In this document: positions 16,574-57,747 of the stretch, in pieces
Numbering within the stretch: position 1 is the stretch's first letter
Layout: every line of letters starts with the position of its first letter
Notes under the pieces: model-generated
The model's database searches: none
The model's input: only the letters and a program-made list of their open reading frames with translations
Told to the model about the DNA's origin: nothing
Assembly: GCF_000189635.1 (NCBI RefSeq)
Contig: NW_002476145.1
Span: 1 to 64,000 of the forward strand
Direction: 5' to 3'
DNA from: Tetrahymena thermophila SB210
Taxonomy: Eukaryota; Ciliophora; Oligohymenophorea; Hymenostomatida; Tetrahymenidae
Length of the DNA stretch: 64,000 nucleotides
Translations under genes and position numbers: made by a program

Positions 16574-18817
<2,244 letters not shown>

Positions 18818-23622: not shown

Positions 23623-26600
23623 ATGGATAAATAAAATCGTAGTAAGAAATTTGATAAATAATCAGTTTTTCTAAAAAGCCTCCTTAATTACTTAATAGCA
23701 TTTTTTATTTTTACTTGCCATGCTGAATGCTAATATAATAACCTTAGTTAACCTTATCTAATATTTAATAAAAATGAATAACAAATTATGTATAATAAAT
23801 GCACAAAAAATGAAAATTATTAAAAAAACAACTACAGCAGAATGCTGTTATAAGATGAATTAAATTCTATAGTTTATGTAAATCCACTTAAAAAAGAAAT
23901 GTACCCAGAACCTTTTTAATAAGTAACTTTATTCATGTATTTTTGAAATAATAATAATTAACAAAATTCATTTTTCATTATGCCTTTAAGATTGTCTTTT
24001 AATTTTCTTTCATTCACAAAAGGATACAATATAAAAAGGATCAGAAGAGCCTACAACAATATTTATGGTGGTAAGAAAATATTTATCATATTTTAACATC
24101 AAAATTGATTTTTCTAATGCAAACAGCCAAAATCAAGCACTGTTGATATCATTTTCGATTTAAGGCATGTCTAAAATCAAATATAAAAGTCTATAAGCTT
24201 TAGCTATGGCAAAGACTGGGATGTAATTATTTGAAAATACTAAAATTAATTTTTTTTGTTTGAATCACTTACTTATTTTATATAAATATTAAAATATTTT
24301 TATTCATTTTTTGCTTAAGAAGAATTGATTGATGCAGGAAATAATATTTTAAAAACCTAAAATTCAAAAATGAAATAGATAGATAAATAAATAAATAAAA
24401 TTGATAATACCCAATTAACTAACTAAATGACTAACTTAATAACTAAATTACTAATTTTGTTTATATCCAATTAAAATTAATTTAAAGATAGAATATACAG
24501 ATACAATAAATATATTAATTAATAAATAATATTGCCAACAGATTGCGATTTCTACAAGCTAGAGTTTCACTTTAGGTAATTGGACACAGGACTTTGAATC
24601 AAATAAAATTGATCTACCTGAATCATTTTTAAACAGCACGAATTAAAAAACAGATAGTCATAAATTTGTTTTATTTGCTTATGAGGATATGCATCTCATG
24701 ATATTCATAAGAATTCTTAAAATAAAATTCAGTTCTTTAAGTTCTTTATTTATTTAAACCACAAGTGTTCATATCTAAACTCCATATCGAGCTTCTATGA
24801 AAAGTGGACTGATATTTCCTTTCATATTGTGGAGTAATTCTCCTGTAAATTTACCTTTAAATTTACCTGAAATGGTCAATCCGAATTAAGATTATCCTTT
24901 AAGCATAGTTTCATACACTACTGCAAATCCTTCTTAGCATAATCATCCAATAAACCTGACTCAATCTTCAGCATATACATATTACATAAATAATGATAGA
25001 TATTGGAAGAACTTGCATTAACTGGTTATACCTTACCTGCCCTATTTTACTAATTGTAAAAATTATGGATAATTCATTTATCTTCATTAAATTATAGAAA
25101 ACCATGAGTTATGCCATCTTGTTGACCCAAAGGATACTGAGCCTATTAAATAAATTAGTTTTTAATAGGAACCTGTTTCTGATTAATGTGAAGATTTAAA
25201 ATTTGAATGCATAATGGATGATGCATTTTATTCTTCTAATGCCCTTCCAAAGTTATACTAATTACCAAAAAATACTAATCTATTTTATATGTCTGCTAAT
25301 CCTGTTGACATTTAAGATATCTCTGTTGATGGGCTTTCGTTCAAAAAGAGTGAATTAATCCCGGTTGTTTCTTTAAATTAAGTTCCTGCAAATTATCTAC
25401 CAGCAAGTATTGAGCTCGCTATTAATTATTACTAAGTTGATAAATACCATAAAAAGATAATCAAATGTGAAATGGAGTTTAAGTCTCTTATAAATAAAGA
25501 GACACTATCTTAATAATCTAATTTCACATATGAATTGCGTTTTTCATTCCATTCTATGAGCCATGCTGAATTAGCTATTGCTTTTGCCTTAGATTATCCT
25601 ATCTACTTGATTCTTTCTTGCATAATAGGTTTATTCAGTATTGCAATGATTTGTATATATTTTGCCTTCTACAAGATTGGAAATTTGTAAATACTAAAAA
25701 AATTTAATCAATTTATCAAAATTAAATCAATAAAATCTTATTTATAAATTTTAAAATAATCAACCAATTAATTAACATTAATGATAAGGTATTTTTATTA
25801 AGCTTAAAATGATTATTTTTTAAATAAAAAAAAGTTTAACAAGAAGAAAAATAAAGACCTCGTCAAATTATTTCTTTCTTTCTTTTCATGGATTGAAAGA
25901 ATTATTTCAAGAAGTTTATTATCATTTAACACTTTACCCGCCAATAATAAAGGGAATAGTTATATCATTTTTCCCTAAAATAATATTATTCACTATTTTA
26001 TCTGTCTTGATGATTGGGACTTTTTGGGGATACACTATTATTGGCTGCAGTAGTTTAACTGATGATTATTTATGCGAGAATTCTCTTTTTGAAATTTTAT
26101 TTGTAAATTTTATCATTTGTTGATGGGAAATAAATAGATTTGTAATATTTATCAAAATAAATAAAAAGTAAGAAAATATTGCACAGGAAACAAGAAGAGG
26201 TAGGCTAGGAATAAGTTTAGTTGTTATTGGATTTTACATATGTGTTAGAATGGCAATAGTTTTTATTCCAGATACATAAGAAGATAAAATATAAGAAGAG
26301 GTTACTAAATTCACAAAGAAAAATCCTGAATTTCGATACAATATAATTTCGATATTAAAATTTCTTTCAGATGAGCCTAAGCTTTTGAAAAGCGAATCTT
26401 ATGATGGAAATATATGGAGAGATAAAGTTTGGAGCAGAGGATTGTTTATATTTATAACAATACTGGTACTAGTTTTAATGGTTATTATTTTATACCTATC
26501 TTTCTCTGTTTACTATGCTACAAATATTTGGATGTTTATATTTATACTCAAAATAACATAAATTATTATTGAAGAGGGTCTCAAAGTTTATGTAGAAAAT

Positions 26601-29600
26601 GAGCTCTTGCTAGGGAGTTTAAGTTGTGTTATGAGTAAATTATCAAAAGATTAATTCAATATATTATCATTCATTTTTAAAAAAAAGCTATGATAAACAC
26701 AATATCTGGATTAGGAGCAGAAAATTACTTTGCTTATCTAGTAAATGTTTTCGTTGCTCTTGGAATTATGTGTTTCGAAAAAGTGAGTTAAGTGTTGATA
26801 GTAAAATAAATATCTCGAAGTTTATTCAAAGCATCAAAAATATTGAATAAATGGATAGAGAAGTAAATAATTGAACTATTTGAAATATCAAAAAAATAAT
26901 AATTATTTATTTTTCTTCAGACAATTTATCACAAATGATAATGAAGAAACAGAAGAAAATGATGAAGAAGATGAAACAAATGATATAAATAGTTAATAAG
27001 AAAAAGAAGAATTTCATTTTAAGAAATAGGAAAATATAAGAGATGGTATATTCATTATTTTATTTTATTTTATTTGTATAACCCTTTTTTTTTAGATATT
27101 AGTGAAATTGTCCTAACAGAGATTTATGAGGAGAGTTTTGGTTCCATTGAAGATGATGGTAAACTATTTGTTAAATTATTTTTTGTGGTTTAATTATTTA
27201 AAAAATTTATAAATAAAAATTAAAACAAAGATTAGTTAAATTTATTTACCAAAATTTAAAATATAGAAGCTGAAACAGTTGAAGTAAAAAGGCAAAGCTT
27301 GTAAATAATAAACTCAATTGGTGATGTTTATCAAGATAAGTTAATTGAGATCAATAAATAATAATAATTAACATCTAAAGTAAGAAGTTATAGCAGCAAT
27401 AGTGTGGAGTGTAATAGTGATCAATTATAGGATTAGTTTGAGATCTTATTTTAGCACATTTTCGATAAAAAGTTTATGAAAAATTATAAAAGGAAAGAAA
27501 GATAAGAAAGCTTAACAGAAGACGAGGATTAGCAAACTTAAAAACAAAAAAATTTAGAAAAAGAAGAAAAAAACAAGTAAGTTAAAGTTTTCACAGACTT
27601 TTGCTACAAATCTCTGAATATCTTAGAACTTGTAAATTAAAACTAAATTTCTTTCTTTCTTACTTTAAGAATTTTGCTATTAAAATATTTTTAATAAATA
27701 AATAAATAAGCCCATTCAAACAGCTTTTCTTTGGTTGTTTTATGATTCTAATTAAATATTTACTAAGTGGAATATCACAAAAGAAGGTCTTGTATTTTAT
27801 TTTCTTTTCTCTATATTTGCTATCCCTTTTCAAATATGTGTAGATATTCTTTTCATCAAAACTGTTGAATAATATCACGGGGTTTGTATTAAAGATTATG
27901 TAAAATCAGTAAAAGAAAGATATATAAATAGAAAATTTAACTGGAAAGCAGATGATACCTCTGATGCCTTAAACTACCTTGAAAAAGAATACTAATATAT
28001 TGATGCTTGGTGCTTTTCCTCTTAGCTTTTCTTTTGTTACTGTATATTCTTGGCTGGTAACTCTAAGATATTTAAAATGTTTCTATTTAAGCTATTGATT
28101 TATTTTTTTTATTTTAATTAAAGGTTCTATAAGCATTGTTTAAGGTGCAATTACAATAATAAATAATCAATATAATTTTTTAGGAGATTAAAAGCTTACT
28201 ATTATAATCATAATATGGGTGGTATTTTGCTTTTTAGTTGAAAGACTATGCTTTTTTTTTTATGAACATTCATAAATATGGAAGAAAGATTAAAAATTTA
28301 CAAAAAAGATACCTAAAACTGAAGAAGAAATAAGTTTAAAATAATAAGCACATGAATAGATTTTATCAATTTAAAATTTTAATTCCCCGAACATAACTAG
28401 ATAATTACATAATCAAAATACTTTTAGAAGGTAAGAAAAAATTGAAATGGATTTATCGCCTTTGCAGGTTAATTCAAATAAAGAGCCTATGACACCAAAT
28501 CAAATTCTATCAAATATTGATCCAAATAAATTGAAATACCAAAATACTTTTTTTGCTTAAAAAAGCCCATTTTAGTTCGCAAGGTAGACTTCATCAAGAG
28601 AAAATTTTAACAAAAAAAGTGATGATAGACTGTTCACTTTTAATTAAGGCGTTTTAAGTTAATCTTAATTCCAAACTAAATAATCAATCCTAGCTAATCA
28701 ATATACAAGAAAATTTTCTACATTTAACAAGAACACTATTAACAGTAATCCTACAATTTAAAAGTTTTTTAAAAGATATGAACAAAATTTATATGATGAA
28801 GAACTTGAATACGAAGATTTCTTTAAAGAAACGGCTAAAGAGATTAATAAAAATATATATTTAAAAATGTATCTTGACAGAGAGGTAGAAAATGCTTATG
28901 AGCAAAGTATTCTAGTCCATTCCTTTATCTTAGAAAATCTCTCAGAATAAAAAATGCAAACGTATTTTTAATATTTAAAATTTGTTTAATTAATAAATTA
29001 AAATTTATATTTTAGAAGTCCTTTGGCTGATTTGACAAATTTAGTAATACAGAAATTTAAATACTCTCAAAATAGTGATTAAAAAAGATTTTAGTGGGAA
29101 TCTTACAAAAAAAATTTCAAAAAAGTTAAGAAATACAAAGAGCGTGTTCAAAAGTTATCAGAAAAGAAAATTCACCTTTTAAATCACGAATACAAAGATG
29201 AAAAGTTTCTTCAAAAATTTATTAAAAGAAATTAAATTTGGATAAGAAAAAATATTAATATTATGTTTGATGACCTAATAAAAGGAGTGTCTCAATCCTA
29301 GCTTCCATTGTATTAAATTAAAATATTTTCCTTTTAAAAGTTCATTTATTTATTCAATTTTTTTTAATTTAAAGACTGAGAAATCATATTTTAGAAGGTT
29401 TTAATCAAATATATGGAGATATAAAATAAGGTTCAGATAATTAAGTAAAATCTATAGTTTAGGATTAAATAACTAAATAGGAAGCTTAAAAGTATATTGG
29501 AACTTATGTACACTATATTTTAAGATATTGGAGATAAAGATCAACTAATTTATAAATTGCTTAAAATGTAGTTGGTGGATATTTGCTAAAAACTAATAAT

Positions 29601-31478
29601 TCATAAAATTGTGAGTATTGTAATAAGAATTGGGGATTATAAGTGTAAACAAAGGAAAATGTGGAAGATCTCTTTAACATTTTTTATAAAAATGAGTGCA
29701 GAAGAATAAAATTTTACTTTAATGTTGTTTAGTTGTTTGAAAAAGATTGTTTAGTTATTGATAAAAACACCTATAAAAGAGATAAAGAAAGATGTAACAC
29801 ATTGAAATCTCTAAAATTCATAAAATTTTAAGATCCTATGTTTCAAGAAGACTTTAATGAGAGTAATGAAAATAATATTTTAGATAACTCAAAAGATTTT
29901 GATGACACCTATAATAATGACAAATCGTATGATGATTAATAGATATAATTATCTTCTTAATAAGAAATAAATTCTTATTAATAAAGAAGGAAAAATTCTA
30001 AATAAACTGCCTTCTTTGTTGAGCACTAAAATTTAAGTAAAGAAAAGCTATCTCAAATAATGAACAAAAAAAAATTTATTGAAAGATGGTAAGAGTTCTT
30101 TTTTAAGAATGCAACTTTTGTCAGTGTCTGCTTCTAATGCAATGAGGAAGCTATGGAGCAATTTATTTATTAAGTTTAAAGAGAAAGGAAAATTAAAGAA
30201 TAAGAAGATCTTTTATTAAAATAGTATTAATAGCATTTAGTGAAACTTAATGAAATAAATGACAATAATATTTTACACGAGCTTGAAGAATAAGATAAAA
30301 AAGATATCGAGTATGAAAAAATTGAAGAATTTGGCTCTAATTACAAATAAAATAGCTGGAAGAAAAAAGATTAGAAAAAATTGAAAGGAACAACGATAAT
30401 AGAAGAAGACTTTTGTGAGAGAGTTATTAACGAAGTCGTAAATGAAGTTAAAGAAGATGAGGAAGATGATACAGGCTATTACAATAACTTAACTATGAGA
30501 GTAAAATCCTTCTCTAGTAAACCTTAGAGGACATCTCTATTTAATATAAGAGAAAAGGCTGATTCAGCTTCTTCAAATAAAGTTGACAATGTCTCTTCAT
30601 TTTCTCCAAAACATTATCAAAGTCTTTAATTAATAAAGCTTTAAAATATTGGATTCGATTAATAGAATAAAAATAAAGATGAGTGTTAATCTCATACTTA
30701 AAGAGAATCTTAAGATATTCAATAAAATCAAAAATCTCTCCAAACTAATAGAGGTAGCCTTTTTTTAAATGCTAAAAATAGCAGTAAAGAAATCCATAAT
30801 AAATCATAAAATTCAGGTGAAAAATCTTTTAACCACAAAAGCAACAGCAGTAGCAGTAATAGTAGTGAAAATAGTAGCAGCGAGAACAGCAGTGATTCAG
30901 AGTCTCGACAACAAAATGATAGCAAATTATAAAGAAAGAAATCGATTCATCTAAAAAGCAATAAAAGTTTCAAGTCACATGAATCCAAAACTCATCCTTT
31001 AACTTCAGAATAGTTAATAAAATCTCATAGTTAAATTAATAATTCAGTTTAAAGAGATAATAATAATAATATAAATAACAATAAAGATAAAGAGCATATT
31101 TAATTATTAGATCCCCAAAAAATATTAGGAGAGTATAAATTATAAAAATCAAGTAATACCTTAATTACATCTAATAATGAAATCGATGCTTCTAACTTAA
31201 ATAATTTCATTGAAAATCCATCAAATTTAAATTAAATTATGAGTTAATAGAAAAAAATAATAAACTTTAATAATATTTAATAGAGTAATTATTTTAACAA
31301 TATAACTATTTAAAAAACTGAAAATGCTTAAACTGAAGATTTTTTCTTCTAAAGTGCAAGAAATATTTCATAGGATTACTAACAAGCAATTAGCAGTTAA
31401 AATTAATACATAGAAGAAGTATTAAATTATTCTAGTAATATTTCATATAATAAGTAATCCAAAAATAAAGAAAACTGA
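23623..31478 (+). CDS. Array paralogue A: giant polytopic membrane protein, unknown family
   Basis: 2204 residues, 14 exons: 23623-23922, 24023-24070, 24127-24222, 24542-25686, 25835-26102, 26187-26634, 26688-26862, 26921-27045, 27096-27158, 27267-27631, 27711-28056, 28124-28961, 29016-29309, 29375-31478. Every phase closes. Residues 20-35 are an N-terminal hydrophobic anchor or signal. The ectodomain, about 35-500, has VNPLKKEMYPEP, IIFDLRH and cysteines (NCKNYGQF, QCEDLKFECIMDDAF). Spans lie near 505-528, 555-583, 623-643, 706-730, 735-755, 770-795, 1030-1060, 1105-1130 and 1142-1162. A GCSSLTDDYLCENS loop follows the second. The tail has a Lys/Glu coiled coil near 1410-1500, CEYC near 1582, CFQC near 1755, an NSSSENSSSENSS region and ESKTHPLTS. 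I do not recognise the family. Start 23623 gives the anchor; an internal ATG at 23788 would lose it. Confidence 0.85.
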
Positions 31479-32007: not shown

Positions 32008-35000
32008 ATGATCAAATTTTTGTTTTTGGCCTTTATTTTTTATTTCTAATTGAATTTGATCATGCCAAAGACCTTTAAATCATAAAATGTAATTAATTCT
32101 TGATGACTCTATTAAGCTAAGCATAAATTACTTTATGAATTAAACAAATTAGATTCATAGTGATGATGATTCACAAAATTTTAAAATAAAAAGATCACTC
32201 CAAGGAAGCTAATAATTGTAGACAGATGAGATTTTATATGTAACACCATTAAAAAAAGAAATGTATCCTGAACCTCTTTTTTAAGTAAGCAAAAAAAGCA
32301 TAATTTTCAAGAAAAATTGATTTTATAAAATAAATACTCTATAAATACTAGGATGAAAGATTATTTGATTTTGAAGAGCCCATTACTATAATATAAGTGG
32401 TAAGTACATACATATATATTGTTTTGATTTTGTTTGTTTCAAAAATGGATTTTTAAAATTGCTTTTAAATATTAAATTAAAATAAGAATCAATCTAGTAG
32501 CTTTGATATAACATTTGATTTGAGACATATTTATGACTTGTAAGATAGTTTAGAATTCAAATATAATAGAGATTGGGATGTAAGAATTTAAAATTATTTT
32601 TAATAGTTGTTAAGTAACAAATATCTTATTCAATTACATTGTGCTACTTTTTAAAACATTGCTAATTTTTATTAAAGATAAAAATAGATACTAATGAGCT
32701 AAAACAGCTTCTAATTGCATAAAAAATTTATTCATTTTCAATACTTTCAATAATAATATTATATTTTAATTTATTAACTACTACTTTTCTAATTTTTATA
32801 GATTGCTATTGCTGTCAATAATACATTTTATTTGGATTCATGGAGAAATTAAATAGATGATTATATAATCGTTCTTCCTGAAACATTCGAAAATGATAAT
32901 ATTATTAAGGAAGATAGCCATAAGTTTAATTTATTTGCATATTATGACTTAAATGTTATGGTTTTTATAAGGATCTTAAACTCTACTTTCTCAAGCTTTC
33001 GAACTTTATTTTTTTAAACGGTTACTTTTAATATTAAAACCCCATATAGGTCTATTTACAATTAGAATAAGATTTTTGCTTTTGTTCTTTAAAACGAAGG
33101 AATAGTTAACTTACCACTTAATTTACCAAACATGACTGCTAATACTTAGAACTATCCTAATGTTATAATTTCTTATTCAACGGCTAATTCCTCGGATTCT
33201 CTTTTCCCATAAAACATAACGCAGGAAAGTATTTACAGTTCATATGTAAATAATGATAGATTTTGGGTAAATATGCAGCAGTTAACCATTCCTTATATCC
33301 CTTATTTCTCAAACTGCAAAAATTATGGATAATTTATGTATCTTCATGATATTATAGAGGATGGAAGTATATGTGATTTAGTAACTCCATAAGAAACTAA
33401 ACCTGTTAAACAATTAGGATTTTAAACAGCACCTGTGTCAGATAAATGCGAGGTAGAAATAGAATGCATTATGGATGAAGCATTTGTTTCTTCTAACGCA
33501 TTACCTAAATTATACGAACAGCCAATTTTAACTAATTTATTTTACGTAGTTACTAACCCAATTGATCTGAATGAAGTCACAGAGAATAATTTGATTTTTA
33601 AACCTGAGGAATTAATTCCAATTATTGCTAGTAACTAAATACCTTAAGGACATTTACCAACTTCTATAGAGCTCAAACTGAGCTACTATTAAGTAGATAA
33701 ATACACGAAAAAGATTATAGAAGCAGAAATAAAATTTGGAAGCTCTGTAGACATCACTACATTACATAATTAAGATCAATTTTAATATAAATTAATTTTC
33801 AATTTTCATTCAATGAATCATGCAGAGTTAGCTATAACTTTTGCTTTAAAATGGTCAACTTACTTGGTACTTTCATCTATCATAGGAACCTTCTGTGTAA
33901 TCTTTATATTTTTATACTTTCTCTATTGGAAGACAGCTAATTTGTAAAATTCGATTTTAGAGTTTTTCGTGTTAAAAATAAATTTTGTAAAATAAGCATC
34001 GTAAGAAGGAAAGTTATCACAGACTCTAAAAACTTTCTGATTTCTGTAAATAGATTAAAAGAAATTTTTGTTGAGCTTAGATTTTTTCTTTCTCTTTACG
34101 TCCCCTTTATATAAGGCATAGTTATATCAATAATTCCTTATTTTACTTTGCTATTTATTGTTTCTGTAGTCATGTTAGGAGGATTCTGGAGTATCCCATT
34201 TTTTGGATGTAAAAGTTTGACAGACGATTATATTTGTGAGAACTCTGTTTTTGAGAAATACTTTGTAATTAATTAATTAAGTTTAATTCTTATTTGAGAA
34301 TTCTTTAATTAATTATTTTTAGGGCCATGAAATAGATTAATATTAAAGAAGAGGCAGACTAGGTGCTTCCCTAGTTATTATTGGGTTTTATCTACTCATA
34401 AGAATTTCTATTGTGTTTGTCCCAGAAACAACAGAAGAAAGAGTTTATCATTAAATAAAAAACTATACTCAAAGACATTAAAATAAGTAATATAATTTAT
34501 TGACCATATTAGATCATCTCTCAGATAGATTAAATATTTTTATGACTCAGTCTTATGATGGAAATATATGGAGAGAAAAAGTATGGAAAAGGGCTATTTA
34601 TTTGTTTTTGATTATGTGGATATTAATAATAGTTAATGTGATTATCACTCTGTCTTTTTCCCTTTTATTCGCTACCAACATTTGGTTTTTTATTTTCTTG
34701 TTTAAAATCAATCAAATTTTTGTTTTAGAGTGCACCAAGATTTATGTCGAGAATGAGCTTTAGTTGGGAACTCTTGCCTGCACTATGTGTAAAAACTTTT
34801 TTACTGAATTATTTTTTTAGCTAAAATATTTAAAACATAAAAGTGATGAACAATTCAATTTCAGGATTAGGAGCACCAGATTTTTTTGAGTACTTATTTA
34901 ATACATTTGTGAATCTTGGTATTTCTACTTATGAAAAGACTATTTAAGTCCTACTTGTTGAGTTTTGTTCTTAAAATACATTTAAAATGGTGGCTCGCTT

Positions 35001-38000
35001 TAAGAAGTGGTTAGATAAGTAAATTAAATTCACATTTTCATTTTATCTTTATTAATTATTAAAATTGTGAAATACAAAAGACAATTTTCACCTTAAGATG
35101 AACAAGAGAGTCTAGATGATGACGTTGAGTCAAGCTTGGAATTATAAAATAATTAAAAAGGTGAAGATAATGAAATAATCGAATAAGATAACCATAAGAA
35201 AGGAAAAGATTTTTTTGGTAATTTTTAATCTATTAATAACCATAATTTTAAATTTGGATATTTAAAATTAAGTAAATAGTGAAATTATGTTGACTGAAAA
35301 TTACCAAGAGAGTTTTGGAACAAATGATGATATAAGTAAGTTCTTTAATTAAAATGTTTTTTCAAAAAGCTTTTTTATATTCTGTAAATTTTTAATCTTT
35401 GCTTTTATGTGCAGGAAATCATATAATTGTTATGAGATTACTGTTTTTTCTTTATTTTCCAAATTTATTATTTTTAATTTATTTTCTAATATAATGACAA
35501 CTATGAAAATATATTTTTTGTTTATTTTCCAATTTGATTTAATAATATTTTAGAATATTTAGCCTGTTATATTTTTAGAATTCACTTTTTTATGATTTAT
35601 TAATGAAAAAAAATTAAATTAAAAACTATTATTTTAAAAGAAATTTAGTAGGAAAATATAACGGATTTCTAATAATAGGTATTGGAATAAGAAAATATAT
35701 AAAGAGAAAAATAGTACTCCAAAGAAAGTTTGGGAGATATGAGTTAATGTTAAATGGATTAAAGCTTTCAAAGCAAATATTTAGTTGATGAAGATTAGTT
35801 TGAGGATACTTTTTAAAGTGTCTTTGATAAGAAATTCATGAAAGGTTTTAAAAAATAAAATAATAAAAATCATTAAGAAGATTTAGAAAAAGAAAACAAA
35901 AAAGAAGAAGAAGAGCTCAGATTTAAATAAAATAAGATTTTTTCTGATTTTTGTTATAATACATTCACTGTGTTAGCAACAGTATATAAATTAATTTATT
36001 TATTTATTTAACTAATTTAAATTAAAATTTTTTATTTAATCAATAAAACAAGCCATTTTAGGTAATAGCTCTATGGATATTTTATGACTCGAATAAGATG
36101 TTTGTGAGATGGGTAATATCGAAAGAAGGCTTAGTATTTTACTACCTTTTCAATGTTTGGAATATCCCTTTTTAAATCTTTGTTGATATACTTCTCCTCA
36201 AGTCCGTTGAGCAAATCCACTAAGTTTCTATAAAAGAGTACGTTAACTTGTGTAGAGAAAGATTTAAAAACAGAAAATTCAATTGGAAAGCTGATGATAC
36301 TACTGATGCTTTAAAGTGCTTGGAGCCAACTTTACAAAAAATTGATGTCTGGTGTTTTTCTTCCCAGTACTTCTTTTGCTTAAGTGTATTTGTTTCAGGT
36401 ATTTGATAAATTGCTTTAATTTTAATTATTTTTTTATATTAAACTAATTATTTAACATTTCATTTTAAAATTCAAGGAATGATTTGCGTGTTATAAGGTG
36501 TACAAACTATCCAGATAAATAAATTTAATTTATTTGCAGATAAAACTTTAGTTTTCCTACTAATTTTTTGGGTATTGTTATGCTTTCTTATAGAATAAGT
36601 TTGCTACTTTTTTTATAATCATACATCTTTATGGAAGAAAGCAAGTAGTGAAAGTAATTAAGAAGATGAGAAGGAGAAAATAATTTCAAAAGAAAAAAAT
36701 GCCACAGAATTACTTGCAAAAATAAATAATATAAATATAATAGAAAATAAATGTAATACATAATTGTAAGAACTAGATTTAGATTGTTCACCTATTATTT
36801 AGCCTTAAAATTATGATTCTATTGTACAAAATAAAGAATCTATCAAACAAAATAGATTTTTAAAAAATATATCAAAAGCAACTCATTTCTAAGATATTAC
36901 AAATGTCAACATGTTAGGAGTAAGAAATGAATTATTTAACTCAGGTTTTTAGTTGAACTCTTTGAATGCATCAAGATAATCTTTATTTTCAAATAATTTA
37001 TATCAATAAAATATCATTGAAAAAAAATTAACTGAAACCATTTTGTAAAGAGTCCAATTTTAAAATAATTAAACTTAACAAAACTAAGAATAGGAGGACT
37101 AAATGCAAAAGAGAAATCAAGAATTTATTTTCAAAGAATAAGCTAAATTTATTAAAAATAATTACTACATTTAACTGTATTTGAAAGAGGAGATCTAAAA
37201 TGTAGAACAATATGATATTTCAGTTTAAAATTTTATTCATGATCATTTATCTTGTTAAAATAAATTTCAGTAAGATAAAATATCTAAATTAACCAAAATG
37301 TAAAATATATTTTTAATAAAAATACAGTGCAACCATTCAAGAAAAAATAGAAGAATTCATTAAAAGAGCAAAAAATTAGCTGAGTAATAAGTAAATATAA
37401 TAACAATGGCTCTCTTTTAGCTCTAATTTCTAAAAGGCATACCATTATAAAGAAAAAAAATAGAAGATTCTAGAGAAAAAAATTCGTTTCTTAAAAAATG
37501 AATACCAAGATGAAAAGTTTTTAAAAAAATTTCTTATCATAAATAAGACTTGGCTAAAAAAAAATATTAAAAATATGGCATATGATATAATAAGAGGGCC
37601 TTCTTCATCTACAGAAGATTAATCAAGGTAATTAATACAAAAATCTTATAGCAACAATATCACAACTTTTACTGACAAAAATTAATTTTTTAAAACTTTG
37701 TCTTTATTTTAAATTGATTTTTTTTATACTTTTTATCTCATCCACCTCAATTAGTTTAGAAATTAACTAATTTTTTAGCAGCACTTCCCAAAAACCCTCT
37801 GAAATTATTGAATAAGAGAAGGCTTATTAAATTTCCTCTTAAAACCTTATTTAATTTATCTATTGATAATAAATAATTAATTTCTTTATTTTAATTATAT
37901 GAAAAAAATAATTTATTCTCATCAAAAATTAAAATAAATTGATTAAATTTTATTTTTTTTGATCAATAATTATTCAAAATACATTTTTCTAATATTTATA

Positions 38001-44000: not shown

Positions 44001-47000
44001 TTTTCGAAGCTATTTCAATACTTGAGGAAAAAGTGGAGCTATTTACTTCAGAATCTCATGATGGAAATATTTGGTAGGATAAAATATGGACCAGAGGATT
44101 GTTTATTTATCTTACGATTTTAGTCATTATAATATATATTGTTGTTATTTATCTCTCCTTTTCTACATATTATGGAGCAAATATCTGGTTTTTTACTTTT
44201 ATCCTTAAAGCATCTTAGTTGTTTATCGGAGAGTGTTTGAAGTTATATATCGAAGATGAGCTTCTTTTAAGCTCTATTTCATGCATTATGGGTAAAATCC
44301 TGTTATGTTTTGCACCAAACATATATAAGTATTTTATAAAAATAAGGTATGAGTACTTCAATCTCAGGTCTAGGTGCTATTGACTTTTTTGATTATTTGT
44401 TTAATACTTATGTTGCTCTTGGTATTTCAACTTTTGAGAAAACAAGTTAAGTTATAGTTGTAGACTCTATAGTTGAAAGTATTGGAGAATATGGTCCATA
44501 AGTTTAGAATTATATTTCAAAGTAACATATATTTTATTTATGATTGATTAAGCTTTTAGAAATAAAATTTATTTGAACTGACTGATCATAAAAAGCACAA
44601 TTAATACTAAAAAAATAAAATATGTTTTTTTTATTTTTGAAAAGAGTTTTTTAGATTGAAAGCAATGAGAATGAAGGGTAAGAAGGAGAAGAAGATGAAT
44701 TATCTAAAAATAAACATGATTTATTAAATGATAATTAAGAAAAAGAAGATAACTAATCCCAAGAAACTGGATAAAAAGGTAAGCTATTTTAAAAAGCAGA
44801 TATTTATTAATAAATAACTTTAATTAAGATTTAGGAAATAGCTCTATATTCCTGACTGAAAACTGCGAAGATAGTATGATGTCTATTGATTTTTAAGGTA
44901 ATAAATAATTAATTATAAATTTTTCTCAACTTATTTTGAATTTTTAATTCATAGATTTCAAGTTAGATGAATAAGATGATAAAAAGCATAATTTGAAATA
45001 ATAAAACAGTATTAAGCTTTTGAATGGGCATAAAAATTTAAGCAGTCCTATAGCTAATAATCTAAATGATGATTAAAACAGAAAACTTCAAAGCTAATAC
45101 TCTGATGGTGATAATGAAGAAGACAATATTTATTAACAATAATATGAAAAAGATTCTTTAGAATTAGCGTTTGAAGAATTACTAAGATAAAAATTTACTA
45201 AAAAGGCATAAACTTTAATGGTTAGATAATAGACTAAAGCTAATTCAGAATAAGAAAATAAAATAGACTTGAAATTAACTATTACAATAAAAATGTTCAC
45301 CGATTTCTGTAACAACACCTTCACCTTGATTTCAACAGTAAAAATATTAATTTATTTGTTGTTATTATTATTCAAAATTCACATATGAAAAACCTAAACA
45401 TTTTTTTGAAATGAGCTTAATAAATAAATAAAAATATTTTTTATTAATTTTAAAAGCAAAATTAATAATCATTATTCATATTATGAATAACTTTTTATTT
45501 TTAATTATATAGCCTTTTGTTGTTGTTTGCCTTTGGATGTTTTATGATGCTAATTAAATGTTTGTGAAGTGGAATATCAATAAAAAAGGTATTGTTTATT
45601 ACTTTTTGTTCAATGTCTTAAATATCCCGTTTACAATGATGGTTGATATGCTGTTTTTAAAGACAAATGAGTAATTTCATGACATTGGTGTCAGAGAATA
45701 CTTTACTTTGAAAGCTGAAAAATTCAAATCTCGTTTTCTTACTTGGAAGGCTGACGAAGAAGAAAAAGATGAATTACATTCACGTATTGAAGGTGAGTTG
45801 AGAAATATTAACATGTGGTGCTATTCTTCTTAATAATTCTTTTGTCTATTTATTTTTGTTGCAGGTATTTAAGAAAGTTATTATAATTAATAAAAAAAAA
45901 TAATTTAATGAAAAATAGGGGGAATAGGAGTTATCGAAGGTGTGCTGACAATTATAGTTAATAACTACAACATTTTTAGTGATTCTTCAAGCTTTTTTTT
46001 AATTTTTATACTTTGGATACCAATTTGCTTTTTATATGATTTTTTAATTGTCAATTTATTTCTTGAAAGAATTTGGGGTGTAAAAAAAGAAGATGAAGCT
46101 GAATCAGATGCAGGTGCAGGTGCTAAGAGTGTCAAAAATATTATTGAGCTAAATTCTCCTAACAGTAATCTTTCTAAGCTGAATTAGTTAAAAAATTCTT
46201 TCACTAAGCTGATCCAAACAAATAAAAAGCAAAAATAACCTTTAAAAATAACAGTTTTAGATTAATAATAGTAGGCAGTTATTTTTTCATAAGACAATTT
46301 AATGCAATAGGGAAGTGATTAGTAGTTACAAAATGAAGAAAATAATATTATCACTGCCATGTAATTTCAAACAGGTAGGTTAGGTCACTCTATTAATAAT
46401 GAAGTTGAAAGAAATTAAATCATACTTAATCAACCTAAATAAAAAAATACACTACCCCAATAACTTCAAATTAAGTAGCTGACTCTTTAAAATACCATAA
46501 AATCAGATTAACATGAATTTTATTCCATACTAAAATAATCAAATGATGATGATAACCAATTTGAGTAAATGAAAGAATTAAAAGAAAGTTTAGAAAAAAA
46601 TAGGTATCTTAGACTATTCTTTGAAGAATAAATTGACTAAATTAATGATTATGATATAAGTATCCATCAGTTTATATTATCGTTCTCTTAATAAAAAGAA
46701 GAAGATAAGTAAATTTATTTTAAGTCTTCAAAAAGCAACCTCTCCTTTTAATTATAATTATTTTTTATTAATAGAGACAGACTATATAAGCTTTTCCTCC
46801 ATAATTTCAAGCGATTCAAGCTATAAAAAGATGCTTATGACTAGTTTAAAAAACTGAAGAATATAGACATTAAAAAAGCAGTATATGAGAAAGAAAAGAA
46901 AGCAAAATATTAAGATATTAAATCTCATTTTACTGAAATTGAATACAAAGATTAGAAATTCCTTACTAAGTTCTTAAAGTTAAATAAAGTTTGGTTGAGG

Positions 47001-49103
47001 AAAAACATGAAGCTCTTCTTTGAAGATTTGCTTTATGGAGAATCTAAAAAAGAGCTGCTCAGGTAATTAATTAAAACTTTTGTTTATTACTTTTTTCTGA
47101 TTGTTTTTTATCTACATTTTTAAAAACCATTATTTAATTTTTATAATAGATTAAGGGAGTCTATCCTTACTAATTTTAGCAATATTTATGGAGAGATTAA
47201 AGTTTAAGGAAATTAATAGGTGATATAAGTTAAAGAAGTCTTTTAAAATGTTGTTTAACCTTCTAAATAGGAGATAGCTCAACAGCTAGATTAGCCCTTT
47301 GCACAAATATTAAAAATTTGGCTTAGAAGAAGCAGGATTTAAAAAATTGCTTAACAATTAATTGGTGGTTATTTTTTAAGAGCAGACTCGATAAGCTGTT
47401 GCTACTGCAAATCTAATTGGGGACTCTTAGTTTAGTGTAAAAATAAAAGTGTTGAAGATCTATTTCATGATTTTTATAAAAGAGAATGCAAAACTTACAA
47501 AATTGTTTTAAATGTATTAGAACTATTTGAAAATAACAGGATAGTTGTTAATCCTTACATTTCCCTATAGTAAAAACTGTTATCTTACAACTAACAAAAT
47601 AGCAACTCTTTAAATTAAAATGAGTATCTAGATTATTTTTCAAGTCCTTAGCGGTCCTTTAGAGAAGATTATGATAACTCAGAAAATGAGTACTAAGATA
47701 CTCCAAATGATTTTATTGACTATGATGATCAGTAGAATCATAATTAAAGTAATTAAAATAATCTCTAAAATAATACAATGCTATTTAAATAGAGATTTGT
47801 TGATAGATGGTAAGAGTATTTCTCTTCTCATGCTTAACTGATATCTGTCTGTCTTGAATGCAATGATAAAGCCTAGAATTAATACTTAAGTAAGATAATA
47901 GAGCAAAGATAAAAGAAGGAAAGAGAGCTAAAATTACTAAGAGACGCTTTACTTGCTTTAACAGATTCAAAAAGTAGCTAAAATCTTCGCGCTCCAACTT
48001 TATAATAGCCTGAGGAACAAGATAGTTTAAAGAGAGATCCAAGCATTCCTAATTTTATTGTTAACAATTTTAACTTTAAAAAGGGAGGAGAAAATATCAT
48101 TAATTAGAATTAAGTCATACAAGAAGAGAATTGTGAAGATTAAAGTTATATTGAAGATAAATTGAGTAAATTTGAAGATTAGCAAGATATGAGTGGAGAG
48201 TATACTTTTCACAGAAAAGAAGAAATAGAGTAATACACTTAACAAAATTATGACCAGAATGAAGAGGAGGATGAATGTAATAATTAACAGTAAGAAGATT
48301 AGCTTATTCAACCTACTAGAAGGTAAAGCACAAAGTTAAATTAGAGCTCAAGGACAATTAAGTCTGAAAAAAGAACTCACCCTTAAAATCAAAATCAAGA
48401 CAATGGATCCGAAGCTAATGAAGAAGATATTAGAAATATTAATGAATAAATCGTAAACAGATCTTTCAGAGTCTTGTCTGCTAGAAAAAGTTCTGTAGCT
48501 TAATATGATGATAGTTATTAAGAAGAATAACCAAGCTAGTTAAATGATAGTAAAAATTCTGAAGATGACAGTGAAAACAGTAGCACATATTAAGAATAAG
48601 ATTAATAACCTTAATATGAGAGTAATAAAGAAAGTAATAATAATCATAATGATGATGATGAACAAGAGGAGGAAGATGATGATGAAGAAGACGAAGATGA
48701 TGTACATAATGTTGAAGAAGAAGAAGATTAGGATAATGCTAATCAGCATCATCATGATGGATAGTATATGAGTTAGGATTTACTTTCTAAAAATACAAAT
48801 GATAAATAAAATATATTTGAATAAAATCTTCTAGCATCTTATGATAAAAATATTGTGAACAAGAATTAATAAAACAACATTCCTTTAAACAATTTATTCT
48901 TGCCAAAGGATTCTTAAGGTTCTAAAAATCTATTTTAGTTAAATGAAGTAGACGAATTAGAAGAAGAAAACAGAAAATCTACATAGAAGAGTAATTTAAA
49001 AGATCAAATTACGGAAAGGAGCTTAGAAAATTTAAAAGTAGAATATATTTATGAATAAGATCAAATAAATGGTGATGAATAAAATAATCAAGAGGAGAAG
49101 TGA
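41067..49103 (+). CDS. Array paralogue C: giant polytopic membrane protein, unknown family
   Basis: 2152 residues, 14 exons: 41067-41333, 41408-41455, 41512-41622, 41973-43126, 43263-43527, 43823-44291, 44347-44521, 44645-44778, 44829-44897, 44955-45337, 45513-45864, 45919-46708, 46775-47062, 47150-49103. The signal peptide is contiguous with the first ectodomain exon (NWHIFIYITTLFQLAILT). Family marks are VNPLKKGMYPDP, ISIDLRH, NCQNYGEYIFL, TCEDVEFTCILDDAF, NCSDLSTERICETS, SHDGNIWQDKIW, and a WCYSSQQFFCLF span. The tail has CCYC near 1584, FVDRWQEYF, CLEC near 1735, and SEKRTHPQN. It also has an exceptional acidic run near 48640-48730, mostly Asp/Glu with a few His. It differs from A and B in the 265-nt fifth exon. 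Stop is TGA at 49101-49103. Confidence 0.85.
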
Positions 49104-49545: not shown

Positions 49546-50110
49546 GTTATAAGTTTTTTTCCTTATTCAAATTATTTGGATTTAATAAATTAAAATAATT
49601 AAAAAAAAAATTTTTTTATTATTATAAAAATTATATTTTTCATTTAAAAATAAATAAAATTTTAATTAAATTATTTTTTTAAATTTTGAAAAGAGTTTGT
49701 TGAGTTTACTTTTAAATTAAAGCCCAAAGCATTTGAAATTTATAATAAAATTCATATTTATAAATTAGAATGGTGAAAATAATCATATTTAATTATTTTT
49801 GAATATAAAAATATAAGATAAAATTCAGCTTATCAGAATACTTGAATTTTTAATTACAATAATAAGAAATATGCCTATAAATTTACCTATTAAATAAAAG
49901 ATTTATTATCCATTTAAATATACATTTCTTTTTATGTGCTTACAAACAAAATGTAATATTTATTACCAAATAATAATAAATTGTGGATTTGATCTATCTT
50001 TTATAATTATCTAAATTATCTCTAACTTTAACAAATGCTCTTTACTATAAAATATTAGTCAAATCTTTGAAATTTATTAAGCTTTATAGAATAATAATCT
50101 ATTCATAAAA
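49104..50110. other. Intergenic region C-D with duplicated flank
   Basis: 1 kb of AT-rich DNA. Its first half repeats part of the 3' end of C and the downstream flank (listed separately), and it contains an ATAA microsatellite at 49499-49528. No gene was recognised. Confidence 0.5.
49499..49528. repeat. ATAA microsatellite
   Basis: About seven consecutive ATAA units, inside the second copy of the duplicated 3' flank of paralogue C; the first copy has only about three. Confidence 0.85.
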
Positions 50111-53100
50111 ATGAATGTTAAAATCTAAGGAAAAAAAGAAATAATTCAGAAAATACCCTATTTTTTATATTATATTTTTATATACATAGCAACTGTTCTA
50201 GCTCAACAGAAGTATGAAAACATTCATTCAGCTAAGTAAGTTTAGTTTTCTTTTTAGCATTTAAGCAAAATATTTTTATTGAAAATGAACAATAAATAAA
50301 TATAATTTATCAAAAAGCTAAACATAATACTTTGGATAAAGGCATTTAACTCTTTCTAATACATTTTTAGTGAATCCTTTAGCTAAAGACATGCATCCAA
50401 GCCCTCTTTACTGCGTAAGATTTATATAAGCATCTTGCTAAAATTTAAACCAATTTAATTATTACATTATAATCATTAAAAAGCAAGCTGAAAAAAATTA
50501 CTAGAATCAGGAACCAAATTGTATTTTTTAAATAGTAAGTTTTTATTAATGGAATATCAATGAATTTAGTATTAATCAAATAATTAGCCTGTACAAAGCG
50601 TTGTGATTATAACTTTTGACTTTAGACATATCGTGAACATTACAAAGATTAAAAACATAGACTTTGATTATGGAAAAAATTGGGATGTAATTTTTAAGAA
50701 TAACTAACTTGCTAATTAATTAATTAATTATCAAGTTATTAAATGAGTTTTATTTAACTCCCCTCTTTTTAAATTTTTCAATAACAGTTTTTTATTTATT
50801 GATAGATTTTAATTGCTACTAACAACACTTTAAAATTGGATGATTTAGATAATGATTTAAGTCCTTTTTAAGTTGAATTACCATAAATGTTTTTAAATAG
50901 CAAGAATACAAAGGAATAAACTCATGTTTTCAAATTGTTTGCTTATTAAGATCTAAATTTAGTTTTATTTATTCGGATTTTGAATCAAAAATATATTAAT
51001 ATGAGAATGCTATTTTAGCAAACGGCTAGGATCAAGATAGAATAACCATATCGTTCGAATTATGGATAAAATAAACTTTTCATGTTTGTGCTTTAAAATG
51101 AATAAAAAATTAACCTTCCTCTAAACATACCAGTCTTAGAACCTGATTAGTCTTATCCACCAACCTTAATTACCTATTCACCACTTGATAATAGTGAAGC
51201 TCTTCAAAATGCTTCTTTAACATCATATTAGAATATTACATACTAAAGTAACGAAATATTTTGGAAAAGCAAAGAGTAAATTGCAATTCCTTATATTCCT
51301 TATATGAGTAACTGTAAAGGCAGTGGGTAATTTATTTATCTACATGAATATATTGAAGATCCAAATTATTGCGAACTCTAAACTCCTTAAAATACTATAC
51401 CAATTAGGTAAATTGAGTTTAAGTAAATACCTGTTTCTGATATATGTGAGGAGATTAAATTTTAGTGTTCACTCGATGAGGCCTTTAATGATAATAATAA
51501 TTTTCCAAAATTCTATCAATAAAACAAAGAGGCAGAACTATTCTTTATCACATAAAATCCAATTAATATAGATACTGATCTTACAGGAGAAAATAGCATA
51601 AAGTCACTGAGTTTAATCCCAATTGTTACAAAAAATATTGTCCCTTCTTCTACTCTTCCCAAAACCATTACTCTAGAAATCAACTACTATCAAGTTGACA
51701 AGTATACAAAAAAAATTATAACTGCTGAAATGAGTTTTGGATCATTCATTGAAGAAAGTAGCAATAGCTCATCTTCCAATTTTCAGTTTAACTTTATCCT
51801 TTCATTTCATTCAATGTCACATTCAGAGCTGGCCATAGCATTTGCTCTTGAATGGCAGGTATATCTCATACTGTGTAGTTTAATTGGGTCTCTCTCTATT
51901 TGCTTTATATTAATTTATCATATATATTTTAGGATAGCAAATATGTAATTAATTAATACTTATAATTTCATTTTAAAATTTTAACAATTTTTTGAATTTA
52001 AACACAAAAATAGAATTTTCAGAAGAAAAATGTTGAAAAATAAAAATTCTTTTGAATTTACTTTTGTTTTCTTCAAGAAAAAACTGAATAGTGTGAGGCA
52101 TTACATTAAACTCTATTAACCTATCTTATCTGGTGTGATTCTTGGAGTATCATTTAGCTTTTTGGTTTAAAGCATAGCTTCAATAGCAATGCTCGGAGGC
52201 TTTTGGGGATATTCGATAGCACCATGTGAAATGCCGACAACTGATTCAGTATGTGAAACCTCTATTTTAGAAGTTCTTAATGTAATTTAATTACTAAAAA
52301 AATAATTTTATATTCAAAATTTAAAAATTAAATAAAATACAATAAATAAATAAGCAAGTACTATTAAAAAGAATTTACAATATTTTGTTAATTTTAATTA
52401 TAAAAATACTTACAGAGTACAACAATAACACAATATATTAGAAGAGGAAGATTGGGTTATACACTTATTGTAATAGGGATATATGGTTGCATAAGAATTA
52501 CTGGAGTTTTTTTTCCTTCATCCACATAAGATAGAATAAACAAAAATGTTGATGATTGTATTAAAGATTCATCTGGATAATAACAAAAACTACTCAAAAC
52601 GCTTAACAAGTTAAAAGAAAGAGACAAAATGATGGTTACTGAATTTTATGATGGTAATATTTGGTAAGAAAGAATCTGGAAAAGAGGATAGTATCTGTAT
52701 ATGTCGATTATTGTTTGGACGATTATGTTAATCATATTGCATTTATCTTTTTCAGCCTTTTATGCATAAAACATTTGGCTGTTTACAGCTCTTTTAAAGA
52801 TAACATAAATTTTTATATAAGAAAGCTTAAAAGTTTACATGGAAAATGAATTGCTTACAAGTTCTTTTAACTGTGTAATTGGTATAAAATTATTTCTTTA
52901 TATATTTTAAAAAACTTTAATTATTAAAAGCCATTTATTTTAAATTTAAAAAAAAAATATTTTGGTGTTTTATATTTTTTCTTATTAAAGAATTTACTCT
53001 TAAAAATATTTTTAGTTGAAAGCAGTTTCTTTTCAAAACTTTAAATATGGAAATTTTATTTTGTTTTTTATTATTTATTTAATTAACTATAGCAACCACT

Positions 53101-56100
53101 CTAATTGTATCAGGTTTAGGAGCTCTTGATTTTTATGAGTATTTATTCACATATTTTGTTAGTCTAGGAATTTCTACCTTTGAAAAGACCAATTAAGTTA
53201 TTCTTGTACATCATGTTTCACATAGGGCATTTAAGTTTGTAAAAATATTTAAGAAATGGATATAAAAGTAAAAATTCTATTAATGATAATAGATAAAATA
53301 AATAATTTTTTTAAATAGATAGTTTTAATATGAAACTAATGAAGATGAATCCACTTAATCTTAAAATAATGATAATTTTGGTAATACTATTGATGATGAA
53401 ACAGATAATTAAAATAAGAAATTAGATGGTAATTTTTAATTTTGTTATTAAATTCTAAATTTAATCAATATACAATTTAGATAACAGTGAAGTACTCTTA
53501 TCTGAAAGATATGAAGAAAGCATGGATACTTATGATGCTAATTGTAAGCTAAGTATATCATTTTATTAAAGTTTTGAAATTTTGTTTTAATAAAATAGTT
53601 GACTAATAGTCTTTCAAAACTTACGGATAACTTCATTTGTAAGATTTAAAAACAGAAAATAATGAAAATATGTTTAGCTCTACTAAGAAGAGAATAAATT
53701 TTGCAGATATTTAATAAGTAAATGAGCTGATTTAATAGGCATAAACAGAAGAAGATTAGCAATAAATAAATTAAAATGAAAGCTTTGATGAATTCGAAGA
53801 TAAATTTTAAAGATTCTTAGATCATAAAATAACAAAATCTTTCATGAAGTCACATCCTGAAAACGAAAAATAAAAAACATAAGAGCAAGAATACAAAGAA
53901 AATGGAAGTTAAATTATTAAAGTTTATACAGATTTTTGTAACTGTTCACTCACTATGCTTTAAGCTGTAAATAATTCTAAAAGGAGTATAATCAAAGTTA
54001 TTTTTTTATTCAAATAAGCCATTTTAAATTGTCTAAATGTGGATGTTTTATGATGCAAGTTAGACTTTTATTAGGTGGCGTATCAAGAAAGCAGGTTTGG
54101 TGTTTTATTTGTTGTTTAATGTGTCAAATATACCTTTTTAGATAGTCATGGATATTCTCTTGCTCAAATCTGTTGAGTAGCTTCACTAACTTTACATATA
54201 TGATTATGTAAATTAAGTTCGTCAAAGATATCAAAACAGAAAATACAATTGGAAAAGAGATGATGAAAATGATTTTTTGAAGATGGTAGAAAAAGAGGTT
54301 TAATACATAGATATCTGGTGTTATTCTTCTTAATATTTTTTTTGCTAAAGCTTGTTTTTAGGAAGTAAAATCTTATTAGAAAATTAATAATTTATTTACA
54401 ATTCATTAAAAAGGTTCAATGGTTGTCATAAATGGATTTCTCACAGTTTTAGCAAACAAATATAACTTTCTAAGTGATGAATACTTAGTTACAATAACTA
54501 TATTATGGATAATAGTATGTTTTTTAGTCGATACTGTCTTAGTTTACATTTACGATCATATCTCTTTGTGGAAAGTGGAGGATAAAATCAAATCTAAATA
54601 ATAAAAATTAAATGAAGACGTAATTGATGAAATTAAATTAACAGAGTAATAGTTAATACCTACAGAACATTTGATTAAGGATTAATAACAGTTATTTTAA
54701 GTAACAGAAGTTTATACTAGAGATTTTAATAACTTAACAGCTGATAAAAAATGTTTAGAAACAATAGAAGACATTAGATAACATAATATGCCAAATAATA
54801 TTTTTTCAAGAGATAATATCATCTTCAAATAAAGCTCAGTATAAGAAAAGCTTATTAAAATGTAATAAAACCATAGGTTTGGTAATAATGCCAAATTTAG
54901 TAAAGGGTATTTAGAATTTGAAAAGAAATTTTCACTTCTTAATTAGCTTCCAGACTCTAGCTAAAGCGATTTCGAAAGATAATAAAATTTTAATTTTAGT
55001 CACCAAGCCAGTTAAAAAATATACTAAATTTTAAATGAACAAAATAATGAGTTTAGTGAATTGAAATAACTTATTTAGAAAAATAAATATATTAAGATGT
55101 TCTTTTTAGATGCTATAGGTATGATCAAATAGTCAGACTTAAGAATACAAAACTATTTATTAGAGTTGTTTGAGGAAAAAGAAACATTAAAGTAAATTTT
55201 TTATTATTTAATTTTCAAAGCTAAAATTTAAATTCTTAAATTAACAGAAGATAATTTTAACTTTTCAAAAAAGTTTAATAAAATTTTTTTTTTATTTTTT
55301 AAAAATGTTTAAATTTAATTTAAATTTTCATGTAATACTTTAAAATTAATTACAATATTACCTTATTTTTTATTAATTCAAAAAATCTTCAATTCATTTA
55401 ATACTTAAATTTTATAGATTTGATAAAGTTAAAAACTTTAAGTTTATGTTTAAAACTTTTACAATTTAGATAATTTAATTTATTTTTGCTGCATTTTTAC
55501 CTATTACTTATGAATAATATTTTATTGATTAAAATTGATTATTTAATTTAAAGCATAAACTTAGAGATGAAATTTGTACAAATAGCTGATAAATATAGAA
55601 AATAGGATCCTGAGCCTTATAAAAAATTATAAAAATGGCTTAATATTAGAGAGAGTATTAAAAAATCAGTGGTCTTAAAAAATAAAATACTGAAATTGAA
55701 GGAACTAATGCCAAAACTTGAAAATAACGAATATAAAAATGAACAATTTAAGATTAATTTCTTAAATGTTAACAAAAAATGGTTTTAAAAAAACATCAAA
55801 TTGCTATTTGAAGATTTAATGAAAGGAGATTCTAAGAACTAATTAAAAAAGTAATTAACATTAGTTTTCAAATATTAAGACATAATATTTAAATATATAG
55901 AAATAGATAACTAATATTATCAGGATTTAAGAGTATTTATGGAAAATTAAAATTGAATCGTTTTAAAGGAGATTAAATTTCTAATGAACAGAAGGTTGAG
56001 TCATCTATAAAATGGTTTGAAACTAATAGCTAAAAAACATCTTTTAAAAACGCTGCTATGATTGTAAGATATTGGCTTCTTAGGTCTAGAGTATAAACAT

Positions 56101-57747
56101 TAGCTGAGAAATGTGTCTCTGCATATATGCTTTAAGGTGAAGGCAGATGTTGTATTTACTGCAAATCTTCTTAGTCAATCACTAAATAAATTTAAAACTC
56201 TAATATCGAAGATTTGTTTCTTAAATTTTATAAAAGAGAATGCAGAAAATACAGATAAGTAAATATTTTATCTAAATTTTCTTTTCACTTCATTATTTTA
56301 TTATTTTAAAATGATTATTCTTCATATTAAAAAATAACTTTTTATCGTAATTAAGTACTTAAATGTGTTTTAAATTGTAAATGGAATCACTAAATAGAAA
56401 GGGAAATTAATTTCTCATGGTTCTTCAAGAAGATAAACAAAAAAATTTGATGATTTTTTACCACTTGATAACTTCTAAGACTCAATAATAGAGCACTAAA
56501 CTGAATAGAAATCCTATTTTCTTTCAAGGTAGTAAAAATTTATAGAATCTTGGTAAGAGTACTTTTTTTTAAATGCAAAATTCATCTATGTTTGCTTGAA
56601 GTGTAATGATATTGCATAGAATGAATACCTTTAAATAGTCTCAAAATTTAGAAAATGGAGTGTTTAAATGCATTTATTAGAAATAAACAGTCAGCGAAAT
56701 AATATTATCAAGGAAAAAGACGAGGAATCTGAGGGATAATTAAATAACTCCTATTAAATAAACTCTTCACTTCTTATTAGTAATTTTGCTCTTCACAAAG
56801 AATCATACTCTAAAGATGAGTTAACTCCAAAAAATAACGAGTAGGTAGGTTAGCAATTTATCACAGATTCAATTTTTCATCCAATTAATCCTCAATAAAA
56901 TAAATATCAAAATACTGTTCAAGCAGAAAATTAAGTAATAAAAGAAGAGAATAATGAGGATTAAAGCTAAGCAGATAGAACGAACTATATTGATCAGGAA
57001 TTCTTTTCTCCTTAACCTTAAAGAAAGAAAAGTTCAATAAACAGTATGCTCAGTTTAAGAGTAACAAAAAGTTCAACAAAACCCTAATACCCCTAATCAA
57101 ATAATCAAAGTCCTTATAAACTAAGCTAACTAGGAATTAATAATAGCTAAAAATTAGAAAATTAGCCTTTAATATAATTAGATATTAAACATGAAGGCAT
57201 AAATAGTCAAAATTACGACTCAGAAAAACAAGGAATTTTGTAGCCAGAAACAAATAAAGATTAAAAAGATTGTATTGATGATCAAAAAACTAGTAGAAGT
57301 GCTAAATCTATCTAAAAAACTCATCCTGAACCCTCTTAGAATAATTTAGATGATATAAAATTGAAAGACAATACCATAATTGATTAACAAATTTAGCTGA
57401 TAAATAAAAACTTAGAAATGAGCTAAAACAGGTCTTTTCGTCTTGTCTAAACAGAGAAGTAAAAAGTATTAAAGGACTAAGAGTAAGATTTTCTGCAAGT
57501 AATTAACAGTGAATAACTTTAAAAGAGTGGTTCTTAGATAAATTTTAGTGAATTCTCTCCAGGTGTTATAAATTTAAACAAAAAATTTATAAATATTTTC
57601 TAAGAAAATAATTAAAATGAAAGTAAGTTTAATTAGAATAATGAAGTCTAATCCCTAAAATAATATAATGAATATTCCTAAAACTAAGAAGAAAGTAGCT
57701 CTTACTCTTCAGAAAAATCATTAGACAAAAATATAGATGGCTTTTGA
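50111..57747 (+). CDS. Array paralogue D: giant polytopic membrane protein, unknown family
   Basis: 2041 residues, 16 exons: 50111-50235, 50318-50414, 50484-50534, 50588-50686, 50806-51944, 52014-52281, 52416-52881, 53093-53267, 53319-53428, 53481-53543, 53599-53966, 54019-54364, 54414-55191, 55554-55850, 55907-56258, 56356-57747. The N-terminal signal reads YFLYYIFIYIATVLAQ. It keeps VNPLAKDMHPSP, ITFDFRH, ICEEIKFQCSLDEAF, a PCEMPTTDSVCETS loop, FYDGNIWQERIW, NRKYNWKRDD and WCYSSQYFF. It is the most diverged copy. The tail is shorter, the CIYC (near 1543) and CLKC (near 1657) knuckles are closer together, and one extra intron (56259-56355) splits a tail block that is continuous in A-C. The THP motif reads IQKTHPEPS. 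Stop is TGA at 57745-57747. Confidence 0.85.

Follow-up and report, generated by a model that had tools for sequence, protein, structure and literature searches.

Ciliates commonly have large families of membrane proteins restricted to their lineage, and a newly detected one has to be set against the membrane proteins already described. The nearest look-alike of the family reported here is meckelin (TMEM67, PF09773), which is encoded in the same genome and in which a Cys-containing ectodomain is followed by several spans, an order like that of the present proteins. The Tetrahymena mating-type proteins MTA and MTB and their partner MRC1 are likewise very large ciliate membrane proteins, and MTA and MTB also combine a long outer N-terminal part with several C-terminal spans. 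According to excerpts of the published accounts, the mating-type proteins carry five predicted spans and a Cys-rich growth factor receptor (furin-like) domain, and the MTA/MTB gene pair lies head to head (PMC10901506, PMC3608545). A third point of reference is MDD, the mucocyst docking complex, an alveolate-restricted membrane complex whose description, in the excerpt available, mentions LamG/ConA or carbonic anhydrase domains in some subunits, and charged pore-lining rather than classical hydrophobic helices (PMC9159632); it resembles the present family in being built from membrane proteins of restricted distribution, which occur in ciliates and other alveolates.

The locus analysed here differs from MTA/MTB, as these are described in the excerpts, in that its proteins have about nine predicted spans instead of five, and in that its genes are arranged head to tail, all on the plus strand, rather than head to head. 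No Pfam match to a furin-like or growth factor receptor Cys-rich domain was obtained in the cores of the four array proteins (A-D) or in two of their relatives (E and G). The kind of protein, a large multi-span ciliate membrane protein, is familiar, and the commonness of such families limits the surprise; the family itself looks new.

The array and its gene models

The window, i.e., the whole 64,000-nt stretch of DNA analysed, sits in contig C342, and the genome searched comprises 101,022,631 bases in 445 contigs. The G+C content was 18-26% in 31 of the 32 2-kb blocks of the window and 33% in the final block. Long frames were open only when TAA and TAG were translated as Gln, with TGA as the sole stop; TAA was read as Gln 114-126 times, and TAG 27-44 times, in each of genes A-D. 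This code and the base composition resemble those of a Tetrahymena macronuclear genome. Early automatic gene models, in which units were merged or introns retained, were dropped, and hand-curated models were used instead, built with an inter-unit similarity bonus followed by correction of the exon borders by hand. In these models genes A-D are intact, each with one open frame, and all introns have a GT donor and an AG acceptor. An earlier note on this DNA had proposed four head-to-tail genes on the plus strand, and this arrangement was confirmed for the predicted genes, which have their own ATG and TGA and are separated by 529, 945 and 1007 nt (A-B, B-C and C-D, by coordinate subtraction). The limits given in that note, 23623 and 57747, were exact, but its protein lengths of 2041-2204 residues only came near the curated 2060-2244 residues.

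The predicted proteins share one layout, in which a hydrophobic N-terminus and an ectodomain precede about nine spans; an acidic linker, two pairs of the C-x2-C type and a low-complexity tail of 865-1031 residues complete it (Table 1). Exon lengths recur, so that an exon of 175 nt is found in all four genes, exons of 466 and 48 nt in three and exons of 268 and 346 nt in two; some other copies come close to these lengths. Eight intron positions are common to A-D (no more than 3 alignment columns apart and in the same phase), and five of the eight also occur in E and/or a further relative, F. This agreement is partly built in, because A-D were curated side by side and E and F were modelled with a bonus for matching A-D; the splice ends themselves are not produced by either procedure.

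Table 1. Coordinates in the window of the curated genes and of the predicted features of their products.
Feature	Position	Strand	Remarks
Gene A	23623..31478	+	14 exons, 2244 aa; curated model, single frame ending TGA
A, first exon: signal-like hydrophobic stretch; NPL..MYP motif, conserved	23623..23922	+	hydropathy peak at residues 14-32; motif aligned in A-D
A, main ectodomain exon: four Cys invariant in 7/7 members, then span 1	24542..25788	+	
A, positive loop, span 2, two-Cys outer loop	25835..26102	+	
A, spans 3-5 with RRGRLG and DGNIW motifs	26169..26634	+	
A, SGLGA motif in a segment of weak hydrophobicity, either span 6 or re-entrant	26688..26862	+	
A, exons of the acidic linker, including the short conserved motif SEIVLTEIYEESF	26921..27631	+	
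A, span 7, span 8 (invariant Asp), start of span 9	27711..28056	+	
A, remainder of span 9, span 10, start of predicted cytosolic tail	28124..28961	+	
A, last exon: CEYC and CFQC pairs, low-complexity tail	29375..31478	+	
Gene B	32008..40121	+	15 exons, 2155 aa; curated model
B, main ectodomain exon and span 1	32802..33961	+	
B, last exon: CEYC and CLKC pairs, tail	38048..40121	+	
Gene C	41067..49103	+	13 exons, 2199 aa; curated model
C, main ectodomain exon and span 1	41973..43225	+	
C, last exon: CCYC and CLEC pairs, tail	47150..49103	+	
Gene D	50111..57747	+	14 exons, 2060 aa; curated model
D, ectodomain, span 1 and span 2 in one exon	50806..52281	+	
D, last two exons: CIYC and CLKC pairs, tail	55901..57747	+	

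Dispersed relatives and divergence of the copies

Besides A-D, matches to parts of A were found in the genome on C117 (plus strand, E), C273 (minus strand, F) and C39 (plus strand, G), and searches of the genome with family parts found no further copy on contig C342. This brings the family to at least seven genes in the genome, of which the array is one expanded branch and the other three are dispersed, so that the array, which the earlier note regarded as the best candidate for an undescribed system, is not self-contained. A profile of A-D matched E and F with an E value of 3.5e-98 over 1009 columns, and a profile of A-F matched G, the most distant member, with 3.4e-46 over 913 columns; over TM7-10 the identity of G to A-D was 19-26%. 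Genome searches with TM7-10 of G recovered G and A-D only, and those with the four-Cys module of E recovered E, F, A and B only, counts that are lower bounds. The models of E, F and G are rougher than those of the array, and probable parts of neighbouring genes were trimmed before alignment (the sequence preceding the start selected for E and F, and that on both sides of G); with these models the members are roughly 1300-2250 residues long. A maximum likelihood tree of the seven members grouped A-D with support of 98/99, A with B with 94/97, which is under the mark of the tool, and E with F with 100/100, and the placement of G is unsure because of its very long branch. As judged by eye, a frame upstream of E on C117 resembles the ATP-binding part of an ABC transporter, and one reading like a peroxisomal acyl-CoA oxidase adjoins G downstream on C39.

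Within the array the copies have diverged considerably. Over a 1228-residue part of A, the identity to A was 49% for B, 38% for C and 41% for D, and the ectodomain exon of A matched its counterparts far beyond chance (E values of 1.3e-123 for B, 2.7e-97 for D and 5.9e-88 for C). Pairwise identities among A-D were 38-50% in the ectodomain, 44-52% over TM2-6, 43-55% over TM7-10, 23-35% in the linker and 25-34% in the tail. As ectodomain and spans have diverged alike (38-50% versus 43-55%), there was no sign of a fast-evolving recognition face. Synonymous divergence ranged from 1.24 to saturation and nonsynonymous divergence from 0.33 to 0.90 (Nei-Gojobori, A+T bias uncorrected); dN was below dS in all 30 region comparisons and was lowest, or tied for lowest, over TM7-10, and the ratios are rough because of the synonymous saturation. 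The near-saturated synonymous sites, together with dN below dS, indicated that the array copies are old and constrained, the linker and the tail least so. At the level of sequence, these comparisons demonstrate a family of seven members with invariant residues and coding constraint.

Comparison with described families

Pfam-A scans covered the cores of A-D, the proteins E and G and the four-Cys region of A, and gave nothing above the cut-off; the best value, an E of 0.026, fell in the charged linker of E. Against PDB sequences, a four-member profile that included TM2-6 found only chance-level, unrelated chains (E 4.8 or worse), and seven-member profiles of ectodomain-TM1 and of TM7-10 found no match. 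In particular, no Pfam match (A-D cores, E and G) or PDB-sequence match to the TMC/OSCA/anoctamin, polycystin/TRP or GPCR families was obtained, a comparison made at the sequence level only. Viral contigs and a prokaryotic genome collection contained no relative of the patterns and profiles used. In the literature no described family was named among the matches listed, a search in which subscription journals mostly fell outside, and the genes may stand in genome databases under generic names. The initial impression that no described family matches thus holds within Pfam-A (parts scanned), PDB sequences and the viral and prokaryotic collections.

Meckelin was tested because its parts come in a similar order. 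The PF09773 model found two meckelin loci elsewhere in the genome, on C306 and C302, a positive control which indicates that the method reaches ciliate meckelins, and among the members scanned, E, G and the cores of A-D, it had no match with an E value of 5 or less. When the seven members were compared with the two meckelins of the genome by hhalign, an E value of 0.096 over 21 columns was obtained, with 0.64 for the reversed control, and the subsets gave 0.27 (A-D), 0.63 (G) and 0.27 (E and F); at these values there is no profile similarity to the meckelins. The two meckelin loci, C306:134904-137631 and C302:19066-20976, are separate and roughly modelled; in the rough model of the C302 locus a long Met/Gly/Gln-rich insertion is present.

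The family could still be a distant branch of a known one, such as meckelin or TMC/OSCA/anoctamin, that has drifted out of the range of sequence profiles. The broad order of parts shared with meckelin and the fast sequence drift seen in G would agree with such an origin. We nevertheless consider it quite improbable, since PF09773 finds the meckelins of this genome and no family member scanned, the meckelin alignment is far poorer than the match that joins G to the other members, and no Pfam family scored below the E of 0.026 given above.

Topology, conserved residues and possible roles

When hydropathy was averaged over A-F, strong peaks were observed at positions corresponding to residues 502-520, 605-623, 668-686, 747-765, 1082-1100, 1158-1176 and 1194-1212 of A, and weak ones at 773-795 and 799-817. 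Further peaks appeared in single proteins, at 823-841 of A, 978-996 of B and 1045-1063 of C, and we take the last two as span 7. The count of about nine spans proposed earlier is therefore plausible, with seven strong peaks in its favour, but the rest are weak, and eight to ten spans are possible. The putative N-terminal signal, which had also been proposed, passed the hydropathy threshold in A and B (peaks of 1.73 and 1.90); in C and D no N-terminal peak exceeded 1.5, and their weaker hydrophobic starts were seen by eye. The average N-terminal peak of A-F was 1.3, and a crude scan gave a hydrophobic start for G. In all seven members the loop between spans 1 and 2 is positively charged (5-15 Lys plus Arg versus 0-6 Asp plus Glu), which should place this loop inside and the N-terminal part outside, and with an odd number of spans the tail would then be inside. 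These charges support the predicted N-outside/C-inside topology, and the hydrophobic starts lend it partial support. Potential N-x-S/T sites (3-10 in the N-terminal part) are weak as topology evidence, because the linker has 0-6 of them and the tail, which is predicted to be cytosolic, has 8-21 in A-F.

The seven-way alignment contains 62 columns identical across all members. Four ectodomain Cys residues are invariant, a Cys pair in the loop between spans 2 and 3 is found in six of the seven members, and a Cys at the start of span 9 and one in span 10 are found in seven and six members, respectively. An Asp in span 8 is invariant (7/7). This residue and the conservation of the span regions, the highest within the array, are what would be expected if a solute or a lipid were moved by the nine-odd spans, with the ectodomain and the cytosolic module in a purely regulatory role; such a transporter or lipid-handling role seems unlikely to us, as no Pfam family passed its cut-off in the parts covered by the scans and the searches of PDB sequences yielded no meaningful match. 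The DGNIW phrase noted at the outset is present in all four array proteins. The linker motif (SEIVLTEIYEESF in A), whose pattern was drawn by eye from the same family sequences, is exact in five of the seven members, one residue off in B and absent from G, and the pattern occurred in 1 of 8000 shuffles of A-D.

Exactly two C-x2-C knuckles occur in each of A-D, as had been read from the sequence at first sight. The first pair is conserved in all seven members, and the two Cys of the second pair in seven and six; the only exception is F, in which an exon end may be missing from the rough model at this place. From these two conserved pairs the four-Cys module is probably a zinc-binding one. As for the coiled coil proposed in the earlier note, the region around the pairs was predicted, with low confidence, to be mostly helical. 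The model of the predicted cytosolic four-Cys module had a pLDDT of 53.0, and a PDB search with this low-confidence model was without match; the ectodomain model reached 37.8, and the alignment used for folding was without the fragments holding span 2. These structure predictions are too weak to name a fold.

A KTHP/RTHP motif is present in the otherwise low-complexity tails of all four array proteins, and no copy of it was detected in the models of E and F or in the shortened one of G; 0.4% of shuffled proteins held it, and the related tails are not independent. The long tails, this motif and the possibly helical four-Cys region would suit a protein with a structural or docking role at the ciliate cortex, the cilium base or a secretory-organelle membrane, with the low-complexity tail as a tether, and comparable alveolate-restricted membrane complexes such as MDD exist (PMC9159632). 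The LamG/ConA and carbonic anhydrase domains mentioned for MDD were not found by Pfam in the parts scanned (A-D cores, E and G), and the excerpt describes MDD helices as charged and pore-lining and not classically hydrophobic (PMC9159632), so that we regard a docking role as rather unlikely, if the most credible of the alternatives to a sensor. A structural or transport role fits the data as well.

Our preferred reading, which we hold tentatively and at less than even probability, is that of an undescribed, anciently duplicated ciliate family of receptor- or channel-like surface sensors with the N-terminus outside and the C-terminus inside. Such proteins would most likely be located in the cell surface or a continuous membrane. 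The N-terminal half, braced by disulfides from the four invariant Cys residues, would meet a ligand, a partner cell or the matrix; the bundle of about nine spans, with the Asp buried in span 8, would relay the signal as a conformational change or an ion flux; and inside, the probably zinc-binding four-Cys module and short acidic motifs may recruit partners in the cytosol or the cytoskeleton. The tandem copies would then be variants of one sensor with differing outer faces. If this reading is true, the family would represent a new type of surface sensor or channel for a ciliate lineage whose genes are routinely knocked out and tagged; even without a function, at least seven constrained proteins with no Pfam match in the parts scanned amount to an annotation gap. 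A more specific proposal, for which we see only a slim chance, is a new receptor-channel class, this genome being the one searched among ciliates, in which the disulfide-braced ectodomain would gate a pore containing the span-8 Asp, the putative zinc module would report its state inside, and the tandem copies would form a sensor repertoire.

Other frames of the window flank the array. Directly upstream of it, a gene at 20661-22325 (plus strand) carries a histidine acid phosphatase domain (His_Phos_2, E 9.6e-22). Downstream, a 648-residue frame at 61957-63900 (minus strand) has a G+C content of 33%, much above its surroundings; by eye it resembles a multi-span transporter, and its best Pfam match was EF_assoc_2 (E 0.15). 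Further upstream, at 16166-18814 (plus strand), a single frame encodes a Myosin_TH1 tail domain (E 6.8e-12) followed by a protein kinase domain (E 9.2e-28), two domains that are not usually joined in a single protein.
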